Both the position numbers and the translations under genes were made by a program. 24,191 bases of DNA from a virus. The stretch's first letter is position 1. Every line of letters begins with the position of its first letter. Shown here piece after piece: positions 9,439 through 20,775 of the stretch. The stretch covers positions 1 to 24,191 of IMG/VR virus record IMGVR_UViG_3300044646_001282, one strand, 5' to 3'. The notes under the pieces were generated by a model. The model was not told the DNA's origin. It ran no database searches and saw nothing but the letters and a program-made list of their open reading frames with translations.

Positions 9439-9453
9439 GAAAATAATATTTTC
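9439..9453. terminator. AT-rich palindrome between converging genes
   Basis: GAAAATAATATTTTC is a perfect palindrome 17 bp after the amidase stop, touching the stop codon of the minus-strand RHH-like gene. The position between converging genes suits a weak bidirectional terminator, but the stem has little GC, so termination is uncertain. Confidence 0.35.
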
Positions 9454-9778
9454 ATTTGGTTGGCTTAATTCTTTTCGGGGTGTAAGAAACTGAGGAGCGT
9501 CGGGCAGGCGGCGCAATTTCGTTTCCTTTATTCCCGTATTCTGGGGAGTCATCGGCAACCAAGGCAATCTCCATTTCTTGAACTGCCGGAATCTCATTGG
9601 CTAAAGCCTCGGCGCGGAGCCGGGCAGTGTCTTTGCGCACGAGGGTCTGCACATAGCGCGAAAACATCGTCTCCCCCTCTTGCTTCATTCTCTGGAGCGC
9701 GAGCGCATACAGATCGCCATCGAAGGAAATCGTCCGTCGCTCGCACAGCTTCTTTTGTTTTTTAGGTGTCTCACTCAT
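9452..9778 (-). CDS. Ribbon-helix-helix-like DNA-binding protein (minus strand)
   Basis: This 108-aa protein is read from ATG at 9778 (alternative in-frame ATG at 9796). Residues ~12-47 (CERRTISFDGDLYALALQRM, then MFSRYVQTLVRKD) have the strand-helix-helix pattern of Arc/MetJ/CopG repressors: a basic strand, a long helix, then SRYV.TLV.KD. The C-terminal half is acidic and then basic (PKRIKPTK). It is divergent from a second RHH-like gene at 9880, and the shared control region holds matching palindromes. The pair probably forms a regulatory switch. No antitoxin-toxin partner is visible. Confidence 0.65.
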   Translation of the reverse strand: MSETPKKQKKLCERRTISFDGDLYALALQRMKQEGETMFSRYVQTLVRKDTARLRAEALANEIPAVQEMEIALVADDSPEYGNKGNEIAPPARRSSVSYTPKRIKPTK

Positions 9779-9791
9779 GTCTGAATCAACA

Positions 9792-9808
9792 TTCATACTG
9801 AGTATGAA
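9792..9808. promoter_or_regulatory. Operator O1: palindrome TTCATACT-G-AGTATGAA, over a minus-strand promoter
   Basis: A perfect 8-bp inverted repeat centred at 9800. On the minus strand it covers the -10 of a plausible promoter (TTGTTG, 17 nt, TATGAA) for the 9452-9778 gene. Its half-site TTCATACT recurs in both arms of the second palindrome at 9852-9889, as expected for binding by the same RHH-type repressor. Confidence 0.5.
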
Positions 9809-9837
9809 AAAAAACAACAAAATGTGAAAATAGGGTC

Positions 9838-9889
9838 TTGACCCCATTCACCATTCTTCATACTTTCCGCGTCACAAGTATGAAGAATG
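9838..9889 (+). promoter_or_regulatory. Promoter TTGACC-N17-TACTTT with operator O2 (14-bp inverted repeat)
   Basis: The -35 TTGACC (9838-9843) and -10 TACTTT (9861-9866) are 17 nt apart, giving a near-leaderless transcript for ATG 9880. Overlaid is a perfect 14-bp inverted repeat: CATTCTTCATACTT (9852-9865) and AAGTATGAAGAATG (9876-9889), 10-nt spacer. It covers the -10 and the start codon. It shares the TTCATACT half-site with O1, so one repressor probably controls both divergent promoters. Confidence 0.6.
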
Positions 9890-10062
9890 CATTGAAAAAA
9901 AAGACGGAGAAACGAACGGTCTCGATGCCGCGCCAACTTCTCCGAGATGCCCTGGAACGCAGCAAACAAGAGCATCGGAGCCTTTCGAGCTACATCCAAC
10001 ACCTCATCGCTCGCGATGCGGAAAAAGCCCGCGCCGAACAACAATATTCCACCCCCGCTTAA
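9880..10062 (+). CDS. Arc/CopG-like ribbon-helix-helix regulator
   Basis: This is a 60-aa basic protein. The pattern KRTVSMPRQLLRDALERSKQ followed by SLSSYIQHLIARDAEKAR fits an RHH fold: a strand with T-S-M-P, helix 1, a turn with SLS, then helix 2 SYI..LI..D. The ATG lies within the right arm of operator O2 and close to the predicted transcription start, so no SD is used and autorepression is likely. With the divergent minus-strand RHH-like gene it forms a two-gene switch between the lysis genes and the early genes. Confidence 0.7.
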   Translation: MKNALKKKTEKRTVSMPRQLLRDALERSKQEHRSLSSYIQHLIARDAEKARAEQQYSTPA

Positions 10063-10073
10063 CCCAAAAAAAA

Positions 10074-10187
10074 ATGAGTGAGACCCATGCAACCATCCTT
10101 CGATGCCTCGGCTACGGCATCGAATTTATCCAACTCCTCGCCGTGCCTGTGGTGCTGGCGGCAATGACCAGGAGGTTAGCGAAATGA
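10074..10187 (+). CDS. Short hydrophobic peptide, early operon
   Basis: This 37-aa protein has one hydrophobic helix (GIEFIQLLAVPVVLAAM) followed by TRRLAK, consistent with a small inner-membrane peptide. The upstream sequence is an A-run (CCCAAAAAAAA) without SD. The stop overlaps the next start (ATGA), and the AGGAGG for that gene lies inside this one. Function unknown. The reading frame is short, so coding status is moderate. Confidence 0.45.
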   Translation: MSETHATILRCLGYGIEFIQLLAVPVVLAAMTRRLAK

Positions 10188-12904: not shown

Positions 12905-13176
12905 TCGCGGAATATGATCCAGACAAATTGGCTTTCCCATGCGACATGGCGGATGTCATCGGGCTTTCAAAGAACGAGATTGCTTTTCTAAAACAAAAGG
13001 GGTGTCCGTTTTTTGGCCGGAAGACGACGGTGCGATGGGTGCGGGACTTTATAGCGCACCAGGCGGGGGCACCAAGGCTGCAGCCGCCTGAGCATCCGAA
13101 AGATTCAGCTTCGAATACACGGCGTGAACCAGGCGCGTGGAGTGGTTCACGAGGCGCATCGCTTGCGACTCGCTAA
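12901..13176 (+). CDS. Excisionase-like/MerR-type HTH protein
   Basis: This is a 91-aa protein. Residues ~11-50 (FPCDMADVIGLSKNEIAFLK, then FFGRKTTVRWVRDFI) fit a winged-HTH/MerR-like fold (adaptor, turn, recognition helix, wing), as in Xis or phage DNA-binding proteins. Its last 128 bp overlap the 3' end of the integrase on the opposite strand, so the C-terminal ~40 residues are low-complexity and may be a by-product. Position directly against int suggests a recombination-directionality factor. AAAGGA lies upstream of ATG. Confidence 0.6.
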   Translation: MIAEYDPDKLAFPCDMADVIGLSKNEIAFLKQKGCPFFGRKTTVRWVRDFIAHQAGAPRLQPPEHPKDSASNTRREPGAWSGSRGASLATR

Positions 13177-14071
13177 GGCCTGCCCGATGACAACGAGTCA
13201 CGAACGATACGCGGAGGCTGTGGCTGGTGGCTCCGGTGGCGGCTTTGAGGATGGAATTGAAGACGCGGTTCTGGTCGCCGGTGAGGGGGCCACTGGTGCG
13301 GTCGCGTTTTTTAAAAACCTGCTCCAGGTGCTGGGCGAGGCCGTCTGGCATGGGCACGGCGTAGCGCTTCCGAGGGTCGCCGTCTTTGCGTTTTGAATCG
13401 ATGAGCCAGATGACTTTCTCCTTAAAATCGACATCGTCGCGGCCGAACTCGGCCTCGCTAAAGCGGCAGCCGAGATGGGCGCAGACCTCGAAGACGGTGA
13501 GCATCCAATCGGCTCGATCGGCGAAGGCGGCGCGGGCGGCGGCAAAGTCCTTGGTCGATAGTTCTTTTTTCGGCTTTGGCGCCGTGCGGGGGATCTTGGC
13601 GAGCGCGAGGGGGTTCTTCGTGCATAGCTCACGGCGGAGCGCCTCCTGCATGACGAAGGAGAAGAGCTTCAGCTCGAGCCGTGCGGTATTGTGCGAGGCA
13701 CCTTGGTCCTTGCGCCAATCCATGAACTGGCTGGCATGCTCGTATCGGATGTCGGCGGGGTGCCTGAGATTGCCCAATCGCATCCACTCGACGCAGCGGG
13801 ACCAGGCCAGCTCGTATCGTTTCTTTGAGTGCGCGTTTGAAAAATGCGCCGTCAAGTATGGTGGCGCCCACTCGATGAAATCTCCCTGGTGGCGTGGCGC
13901 GAGCTGGGCCTCGCGGCGTGCGGCGGCTTCCGCCATGCGCTGCGCTTTGCGCGTCTCCTTGGCGTCATCGATCCGGCATCTGGTGGATTCCTCGCGCCAC
14001 CGGCCGGTATCGAGGTCGCGGTATTTGAGGATCCAGAACGAGGACTTGGGAGTCTGCCGTAAAAACGCCAT
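13049..14071 (-). CDS. int: Tyrosine site-specific recombinase (phage integrase)
   Basis: This 340-aa protein is read from ATG 14071 (14089 is an alternative). An N-terminal AP2/arm-type basic region (FWILKYRDLDTGRWREEST), a SAM-like core-binding domain (~65-150) and a C-terminal catalytic domain are present. The catalytic set is visible: Arg203 in HLGCRFSE, a Lys in SKRKDGDPRK (228/230), His284-Ser-Leu-Arg287, His310 in VNHSTR, and the nucleophile Tyr319 in HAVYSKL. It is the only large minus-strand gene. An attP-like repeat region lies directly upstream. The 3' end overlaps the Xis-like gene by 128 bp, tail to tail. Confidence 0.9.
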   Translation of the reverse strand: MAFLRQTPKSSFWILKYRDLDTGRWREESTRCRIDDAKETRKAQRMAEAAARREAQLAPRHQGDFIEWAPPYLTAHFSNAHSKKRYELAWSRCVEWMRLGNLRHPADIRYEHASQFMDWRKDQGASHNTARLELKLFSFVMQEALRRELCTKNPLALAKIPRTAPKPKKELSTKDFAAARAAFADRADWMLTVFEVCAHLGCRFSEAEFGRDDVDFKEKVIWLIDSKRKDGDPRKRYAVPMPDGLAQHLEQVFKKRDRTSGPLTGDQNRVFNSILKAATGATSHSLRVSFVTRCHRAGLSESQAMRLVNHSTRLVHAVYSKLNLSDAQAAAALVPPPGAL

Positions 14072-14077
14072 GGCCAC

Positions 14078-14249
14078 AGACTCCCACATGCTCCCACACG
14101 CATCCACAAAAATCGTGTGGGATAAAGTGGGGGAGCGTTGTTTTGCAGGGTTTTGCGTGGAAGGGAATTCCCTACCGTTACACCACGAGGCAAGGTTTTG
14201 TCTTGTATTTGAAGCACTTGCGGGAGACTCCCACACGGCTCCCACAAAA
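14078..14249. other. Candidate attP / integrase-binding region
   Basis: Part of the 231-bp gap 14072-14302. CTCCCACA occurs four times in two helically spaced pairs: 14081 and 14091, then 14228 and 14239. They flank a centre with a perfect palindrome AGGGAATTCCCT (14162-14173) and two GTTTTGC repeats 10 bp apart (14140, 14150). The minus strand of 14172-14191 reads GCCTCGTGGTGTAACGGTAG, like the 5' half of a bacterial tRNA (acceptor plus D-arm). Arm-type pairs around a tRNA-like core beside int are the classic attP arrangement. They could instead be operators for the int/primase promoters. Confidence 0.4.
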
Positions 14250-14302
14250 AATCTTGGGGTTGCCGGTGTGCAACGGCTGGGAATCTGGAGCGGGGGGGCT
14301 TT

Positions 14303-15466
14303 GTGAGCAAGGACAAAGTTTCTGTGGCGGAGCGGGCGGCGAGGTATTTGCAGAAGATGGGGCCTGCGGTATCGGGCGCTGGCGGACATACGCACACGCT
14401 TCTTTGTGCTCGGGCTTTGGTGAGGGGGTTTTTGCTGTCGCCTTCGGAGGCGCTGGGGATTTTGGAAAATTGGAATCAGGGGAATGCGGAGAAGTGGTCG
14501 TCGCATGAACTGGAGCACAAAGTGCGGTCGGCAGTGAATGGACCTGGTGAGGATGGGTATTTGCTGAGGGAGAGTGATCGGTCGGCTTCGCGCTCGGTGT
14601 CTTCTTCTCGAGATCAGGTGCTCCCGACGAAGCCTCGGCCGCGTTTGGTTTACGAGCCGGAGATGCTGCGGCGTATCGCGGGGGATTTTGCGGCTGCGGT
14701 GGATTTGCCTTGGTTGGCGAATCGGTCGGAGGTGGATCCGGCTGGGGTGGAGGCGGGGGAGTTTCTGTCGCGGCTCTACAATGCCGAGGCGGGCGAGCGG
14801 GTGATTGTTTTTTCGGAATACAAAAGCCAGGGGCAGGCTGTGTGGCCGACTCAGAGCATTCCGACTTCTGGGAAGGATGGCGTTTGGTTTTTGGCTCAGC
14901 CGGTGGATGGGAAGCTGCGGCCGAATCCTCGCCTGGGAAAGATGTCGCGTCGCTCGGAGGAGTCGGTGCTGGCTTGGCGCTGGATGGTGCTGGAATCAGA
15001 TGAGGCTCCGGTGAGGCTGTGGCTGGGTGCATTGGCTCGGGTTGTTCCGAGGATTGCGGCGATCACGACTTCTGGAGGTCGCTCGGTGCATGCATTGGTG
15101 CGGGTTGATGCGGCCACAAAGCGAGAATGGGATGACATCAAGCGGGAGGTGCTGGGCCTGGTGGCTGCGGGCGCGGATCAAGGTGCTCTGTCGGCGGTGC
15201 GTCTTACGCGGCTGCCTGGTTGCTGGCGGGGGGGGAAGGAGCAGAAGTTGCTCTACTTCGCGCCGAGTGCTCCGGCTTTGACGATCGCTGAGATGCTGCC
15301 TCGCAGGGATGTGTTGTCTTTTTGGCGTGGGGAGTGTCGCCGGGTGGCGATGGGGGGCTTTGCGGATCGTGAGGCTGTGGGTCGGGCGCTGTCGGGGTGT
15401 CGGCACTATGGGCGGTTTGACGAGTGGCTGATGAACGCGGCGGTGGAGCTGGAGAGAGAAATTTAA
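14303..15466 (+). CDS. Primase-like replication protein (AEP-type fold)
   Basis: This 387-aa protein starts at GTG 14303 after a G-rich stretch. Residues ~8-80 (AERAARYLQKMGPAVSGAGG, then LENWNQGNAEKWSSHELEHK) match the PriCT-type helical domain found in phage primases. Residues ~225-320 look like an archaeo-eukaryotic primase core: ESD (231-233) as motif I, SGGRSVH (257-263) as motif II, and RLTRLPGCWRG. Such proteins make primers for phage DNA replication next to an SF3 helicase, which follows 21 bp downstream. The AEP assignment rests on these short motifs. + strand DNA is strongly G-rich here, opposite to the late genes. Confidence 0.7.
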   Translation: MSKDKVSVAERAARYLQKMGPAVSGAGGHTHTLLCARALVRGFLLSPSEALGILENWNQGNAEKWSSHELEHKVRSAVNGPGEDGYLLRESDRSASRSVSSSRDQVLPTKPRPRLVYEPEMLRRIAGDFAAAVDLPWLANRSEVDPAGVEAGEFLSRLYNAEAGERVIVFSEYKSQGQAVWPTQSIPTSGKDGVWFLAQPVDGKLRPNPRLGKMSRRSEESVLAWRWMVLESDEAPVRLWLGALARVVPRIAAITTSGGRSVHALVRVDAATKREWDDIKREVLGLVAAGADQGALSAVRLTRLPGCWRGGKEQKLLYFAPSAPALTIAEMLPRRDVLSFWRGECRRVAMGGFADREAVGRALSGCRHYGRFDEWLMNAAVELEREI

Positions 15467-20362: not shown

Positions 20363-20599
20363 ATGAGCCCCACCGACACACAAATCCGCCTAGCTTGCAG
20401 CGTCGATGCAGCAGGCCACCGCAGCGGCCAACCGCTCACGCTAACCGCCACCGGACCTGACAACCTGACGATCCCGAACGGCTACATTGTCCGCCACGGC
20501 CTGCGAGTCGGCGCTCGGTTCCGGTCGTTTGGAACAGCCATGCGCGCCTTTGAATTCAAGCGCGAAAATCTCGGCTACACCACCATCGCCACAGCATGA
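20363..20599 (+). CDS. Small unknown protein in inserted cassette
   Basis: This 78-aa beta-rich protein (RSGQPLTLTATGPDNLTIPN, then GFRV-like GLRVGARFRSF) has ATG 20363 preceded by an A/C-rich leader (ACCACCCCCTTAAAAAAACC) with no SD. It is coupled by ATGA overlap to the next gene. No named family. Confidence 0.55.
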   Translation: MSPTDTQIRLACSVDAAGHRSGQPLTLTATGPDNLTIPNGYIVRHGLRVGARFRSFGTAMRAFEFKRENLGYTTIATA

Positions 20600-20775
20600 A
20601 AAAAAAAACCACTACCCACGGCGGCGCGCGCAAAGGAGCCGGACGAAAGACAGGCTCTGGAAAGGGCCGAACCTATGTTCCAAAAACCGTGGCGATGTCG
20701 TCAGAATCCTGGGACAAGCTCGACCGCCAGCGCGGCGACCAGTCACGCGGGAAATACATCGAGTCCCGCCTTTGA
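20596..20775 (+). CDS. Small basic DNA-binding-like protein (GGxRxGAGR motif)
   Basis: This 59-aa protein contains HGGARKGAGRKTGSGKGR, a motif seen in phage terminase small subunits and DNA-binding proteins, followed by YVPKTVAMSSESWDKLDRQR and a helical end (SRGKYIESRL) like a short CopG-type RHH. It could bind packaging or promoter DNA. Its stop is 4 bp before dispersed repeat copy C. Confidence 0.6.
   Translation: MKKKTTTHGGARKGAGRKTGSGKGRTYVPKTVAMSSESWDKLDRQRGDQSRGKYIESRL

Follow-up and report, generated by a model that had tools for sequence, protein, structure and literature searches.

The divergent gene pair described here, two small RHH paralogs that share the operators O1 and O2, is probably the main immunity and lysogeny switch of a temperate, tRNA-Gln-integrating phage of Verrucomicrobiota. 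The window, i.e. the whole stretch of DNA that was analysed, is a virus record of 24,191 bases and represents a fragment of the phage genome. A sequence-only reading had seen in this locus a compact RHH-based switch. The anatomy of the genes and operators, their conservation and the attachment sites, all read from sequence data, support that proposal: the two genes are paralogs, their operators are shared, strands and operators change together, repressors and operators are exchanged as a cassette, an integrated prophage carries a pair of its own, and no recognisable gene of CI/Cro type was found in the regions scanned. With less assurance, we consider it reasonably likely that the main switch consists of just two RHH paralogs with one strand code, and that at least four pairs of code and operator define heteroimmune groups of Verrucomicrobiota phages that exchange half-kilobase cassettes. 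Coordinates are given in Table 1.

Table 1. Features of the RHH locus and of the integration region (window positions)
Feature	Position	Strand	Remarks
Minus gene, long RHH paralog, 108 aa	9452..9778	-	ATG at 9778, stop at 9452; start backed by relatives
O1, perfect 17-bp palindrome TTCATACT-G-AGTATGAA	9792..9808	.	Half-sites 9 bp apart, before the minus gene
Predicted minus promoter, TTCACA-16 bp-CATACT	9801..9828	-	Promoter scan; -10 inside O1
Predicted plus promoter, TTGACC-17 bp-TACTTT	9838..9866	+	Read from sequence; TTGACC at 9838, TACTTT at 9861
O2, perfect 14-bp inverted repeat	9852..9889	.	Half-sites 9857-9864 and 9877-9884, 20 bp apart
Plus gene, short RHH paralog, 60 aa, first in rightward early operon	9880..10062	+	ATG 9880; conserved in relatives
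Small membrane peptide ORF, 37 aa, early-operon neighbour	10074..10187	+	Read from sequence; directly 3' of the plus gene
Tyrosine integrase ORF	13049..14518	-	Pfam Phage_integrase 1.8e-06; PHROG integrase 2.2e-37; true start further inside
attP core, 21 nt CTACCGTTACACCACGAGGCA	14172..14192	.	Identical to tRNA-Gln(CTG) 3' end and both prophage ends

The pair was expected between lysis and early genes, and this is where it lies, with an Amidase_2 endolysin on one side and early genes on the other. Tail, holin-like and amidase genes stand to its left; small early genes, the opposite-strand integrase, and genes for primase, a helicase-like protein, terminase, portal and protease stand to its right. 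The membrane peptide encoded next to the plus gene is a single helix with relatives in the L015 and L016 contigs. The same 11 nt (ATGAGTGAGAC) open the minus RHH gene (9768-9778) and the membrane peptide gene (10074-10084) in inverted orientation. Repeats of about 30 bp, of CACAGAGGACACAGAG type, are dispersed in intergenic spaces of the phage (10195-10224, 12630-12660 and 20783-20815). A small basic protein without Pfam family is encoded at 20596-20775, adjoining the terminase and portal genes, and has a related gene in a 31-kb relative. In that relative the start of L049 and the end of L050 consist of C homopolymers, which resemble an artefact of sequencing or assembly where the contig breaks off.

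The minus and plus proteins are paralogs with 43% identity over 49 aa. AlphaFold models of both display an N-terminal strand region and two helices, the RHH topology, with helices at residues 21-34 and 39-61 of the minus protein (pLDDT about 90 over the domain) and 18-31 and 35-56 of the plus protein (mean pLDDT 78). The strand itself was unassigned in these AF2 monomer models, as expected since the RHH strand forms on dimerisation. In the minus protein the RHH domain (approximately residues 13-61) is followed by a tail of 46 aa with little predicted order. Its Foldseek neighbours were mostly RHH proteins (NikR, Arc, CdbA, CopG), headed by E. coli NikR (prob 0.91, E about 1), none being significant by E-value. 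A search with the minus domain among sequences of solved structures returned spurious fluorescent-protein matches alone and did not find NikR. The plus protein matched the PHROG 'Arc-like repressor' weakly (E 0.004), the RHH_5 match for the relative L014 (0.0004) was under the gathering score, and neither RHH protein of the window reached the curated cut-offs of Pfam or PHROG. The RHH assignment, earlier worded as RHH-like, is thus a probable one that rests on predicted fold and on weak profile scores below curated cut-offs. Two other starts of the minus gene, at 9847 (a 131-aa reading from upstream of O1) and at 9796, were discarded on the evidence of relatives: against the 131-aa reading, L014 has a stop there and L013 is without the ATG inside O1.

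Both operators were recovered with the coordinates and sequences first assigned to them, as a 17-bp palindrome and a 14-bp inverted repeat. The arms of O2 (9852-9865 and 9876-9889), 14 nt each and 100% complementary, constitute the sole fully complementary inverted repeat of at least 14 nt within 40 bp in the window. The half-site proposed as common to O1 and O2 proved to be TTCATACT, which occurs four times in the 24-kb window, exactly at the four half-site positions, against 0.10 expected from dinucleotide shuffles, none of which held four copies. The search for further half-sites that had been suggested, run on the 24-kb window, found none beyond the two operators. O2 overlaps the predicted -10 of the plus gene and, as had been claimed, its start codon, the ATG lying inside the right half-site. 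That each operator covers the -10 of a predicted promoter held in different ways for the two genes: for O1 and the minus gene by promoter scan, and for O2 and the plus gene by direct reading, the scan remaining silent because TACTTT matches in merely 3/6 positions. The TTGACC element and its 17-bp spacing are nevertheless kept in L013-L016, L023 and L069, in window-like as well as KKSIS-type phages, despite the changing operator. The minus promoter is less well kept in distant relatives. Transcription of the plus gene is expected to start at about 9873, and the predicted leader is therefore 6-8 nt long.

Relatives were gathered from many metagenomes by scans with the plus protein and a helicase alignment. 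A divergent RHH pair is present in all relatives with a contig that extends over the site, and the gene immediately downstream of the plus gene differs among them. O2 keeps two matching half-sites of altered sequence (TTCATACT; TTCCTACT; a GTGAGCACACTTT palindrome with 13-bp arms; ACGCCGT), spaced 10 to 32 bp apart. Matching half-sites with altered sequence occur in L015, L016 and L069, while L068 and L080 have other palindromes at the same place. Relatives keep just the TTCATACTT core of O2, and the outer part of its 14-bp arms is thus specific to the window. In L013, L015, L016 and L023 the halves of O1 are still 9 bp apart, the left one being degenerate. A loose pattern, TTCMTACYN{0,20}RGTAKGAA, is absent from the remaining sequence of the seven relatives that have it. 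The test for words shared by O1 and O2 was mostly not significant in single distant phages, and word sharing is consequently claimed firmly for the window group alone. Searches further afield found little: tblastn of both RHH proteins gave no sequence match in 50,697 annotated phage records, a plus-family profile gave none in genome contigs, and a profile search of 388 genomes of the phylum yielded weak, distant RHH matches alone. The annotated transcriptional regulators of Akkermansia phage Moulinsart belong to other types, and no RHH match was obtained there.

The operator changes in step with the beta-strands of the two proteins. RTIS/RTVS (RTVSM) strands in both proteins pair with the TTCATACT operator, KxSIS strands (L015, L016, L069) with a TTCCTAC operator, and GFR strands (L060, L068, L096-L100) with GTGAGCACACTTT-like palindromes at the plus start. 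In a Chthoniobacter prophage, TTLSLSLP and TTLTISIP strands accompany ACGCCGT-AAC-ACGGCGT between -35 and -10 and a further CGCCGT before the minus gene. A permutation test on seven distinct phages, which represent few independent lineages, gave a beta-strand match of 3.17 for same-phage partners and 1.36 for cross-phage pairs (p=0.0034), with a weaker effect in helix A (p=0.014) and none in helix B (p=0.51). In RHH proteins it is the ribbon that reads the half-site, in the major groove (PMC3325190), and one residue of the strand can suffice to switch specificity (PMC8136818). The co-variation is the pattern that two proteins reading one operator would show. Strand residues co-vary both between partners and with the operator, an indirect sign that the RHH dimers may bind DNA through the beta-ribbon.

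The joint replacement of repressors and operators is a mark of an immunity region, and such joint exchange was found in two pairs of otherwise similar phages. L068 aligns with L014 at 87.7% identity as far as L068 position 2989, within the minus gene, and again at 97.5% identity from 3507, ten nt before the plus stop. No alignment is obtained between these flanks, where the minus DNA-binding domain, the operators and almost the entire plus gene are either unrelated or highly diverged, so that the swapped segment of L068 represents a 0.5-kb cassette. L060 matches the window as far as the amidase gene extends and again from the plus stop codon onward, and the alternative cassette is common to L060 and L068. 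The tails of the minus proteins remain with the phage backbone.

The attP core lies between integrase and primase and recurs in L028 (6211-6231) and L080 (4742-4762). A Chthoniobacter MAG holds a prophage of 30.2 kb that extends from tRNA-Gln to the 21-nt direct repeat and carries its own divergent RHH pair. The terminase of the window has its nearest cellular relatives in this same MAG (82%) and in a Spartobacteria MAG (86%). Together, the terminase relatives, the att-bounded prophage and the shared 21 nt indicate that the phage family is temperate and that its host is most likely a verrucomicrobium. Verrucomicrobia are bacteria of soil and freshwater and, to our knowledge, a phylum in which few phages have been studied. 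For the window and the 31-kb relative, 40 ORFs from the regulatory regions gave no match to HTH_3, Peptidase_S24 or a similar family, and 34 ORFs of the prophage gave none to HTH_3 or Peptidase_S24. Note that these ORFs were picked by a rule on length and overlap that might miss a repressor of very small size or strong divergence, and that for this phage the absence of a CI-like gene refers to the regulatory ORFs of the fragment; such a gene may lie in the missing structural part.

Two alternatives concern the nature of the operators. Paired arms of O2 would sequester the start codon of the plus gene, and O2 could accordingly be read as an RNA hairpin governing its translation instead of an operator. 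However, the left arm lies on the -10, hence upstream of the predicted start of the transcript, and with so short a predicted leader O2 is better seen as a DNA element. The same half-site moreover forms the palindrome O1 outside the plus gene, and L015 and L016 have their start codon past the core of the right half-site. The hairpin was rejected on the overlap of its left arm with the -10 and is in our view most improbable. The half-sites could also be those of a host regulator, NikR for example, placing phage genes under the nickel state of the host. NikR heads the fold matches of the minus protein, is itself of RHH type, and in E. coli binds GTATGA-N16-TCATAC (PMC7055735), with the same hexamer. 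It is, however, a metal-binding tetramer, with no nickel domain seen here, and its half-sites are 16 bp apart and face the opposite way to TCATAC-N14-GTATGA in O2 and to the N3 arrangement in O1. Operator sequence furthermore varies between related phages in step with their own RHH strands, and the sequence search described above did not find NikR. Half-site orientation and co-variation led us to discard a NikR site, a reading whose chances are minimal. The identity of the hexamer is a lead on how the strand reads the half-site and no sign of common regulation.

Other alternatives accept the operators and question the role of the pair. In Salmonella phage P22, mnt and arc are divergently ordered. 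Besides its main immunity region this phage has a second one, immI (mnt, arc, ant), which serves to control an antirepressor (PMC7549136, PMC8022706), and the pair described here might likewise control an accessory early gene for antirepression or exclusion, an unrecognised protein being the main repressor. Small genes of unknown function do follow the plus gene. Against this role, no antirepressor-type family was found in the downstream ORFs scanned, neither the regulatory ORFs nor the att-bounded prophage showed a domain of antirepressor or CI/Cro type, and the divergent pair stays at the late/early boundary in all covered relatives while the downstream gene varies. We regard it as unlikely. 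RHH domains are also common in antitoxins, and weak matches to HicB_lk_antitox and CopG_antitoxin profiles could suggest two autoregulated antitoxins or the remnant of a toxin-antitoxin system. Yet no toxin family was present among the neighbouring ORFs scanned, the downstream genes vary between relatives, and divergent RHH genes with shared operators are not a toxin-antitoxin layout, which makes this origin very unlikely.

The preferred reading, a main switch of two RHH paralogs, would work as follows. We infer binding, direction of regulation, identity of the lysogenic protein and induction signal. The two paralogs, with their matched beta-strands, would compete for O1 and O2 or share them, their dimers inserting the beta-ribbon at TTCATACT half-sites. 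Occupation of O2 would cover the plus -10, start site and start codon and turn off the rightward early operon; occupation of O1 would cover the minus promoter and thereby regulate the minus gene. The longer minus protein would sit on O2 in the lysogen and is proposed as the prophage-maintenance repressor, in a role like that of Mnt or CI. During lytic growth the short plus protein, a putative early autorepressor comparable to Arc or Cro, would repress the minus promoter through O1 and, once accumulated, its own promoter through O2. The whole unit shifts its DNA specificity and moves between phages as a cassette.

Lambda CI and Cro are divergent repressors with shared operators over both promoters, located at the late/early boundary and exchanged as an immunity cassette. 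The present locus resembles them in its divergent pair, shared operators, late/early position and cassette exchange; unlike lambda, it encodes RHH instead of HTH proteins, and no HTH repressor with autoprotease was found. With no autoprotease domain here, induction must work differently from lambda. The P22 paralogs measure 53 and 82 aa and are about 40% alike (PMC7549136), and the Mnt tail makes tetramers (PMC3325190). As in immI, the operators lie between a divergent pair of RHH paralogs, of which the longer has a C-terminal tail and the shorter heads the other operon, and the role, here proposed, is in lysogeny versus lytic growth. Unlike in immI, we found neither an antirepressor downstream of the short gene nor, in the 40 and 34 ORFs, a main region of CI/Cro type, whereas the proteins of one phage share strand code and half-site and the cassette is exchanged. 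The archaeal virus SSV1 is kept lysogenic by F55, a small RHH protein that covers early promoters as well as its own promoter (PMC5569661); there it is a single gene, with tandem repeats ATAGATAG, archaeal promoters and no divergent paralog. Of the proposal that RHH proteins stand in for CI/Cro, the switch is therefore supported, while an RHH pair is not in itself novel, given P22 mnt/arc and SSV1. Searches of open-access papers, incomplete in coverage, turned up no account of two RHH paralogs forming the main switch of a phage. Such a switch would be very small, with two proteins (60 and 108 aa) and two operators, and would show that RHH control of P22 style is able to act as the main switch of a phage. 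As a naturally occurring series, the repressor pairs with their matching operators would also make the RHH recognition code and the evolution of immunity specificity readable and testable. A last observation concerns the G008 contig (L052, L053, L048; 57,528 bases), which contains two related phage genomes, each with its own divergent RHH pair and a different strand code, which may mean that two heteroimmune phages are carried together or that the assembly joined them.
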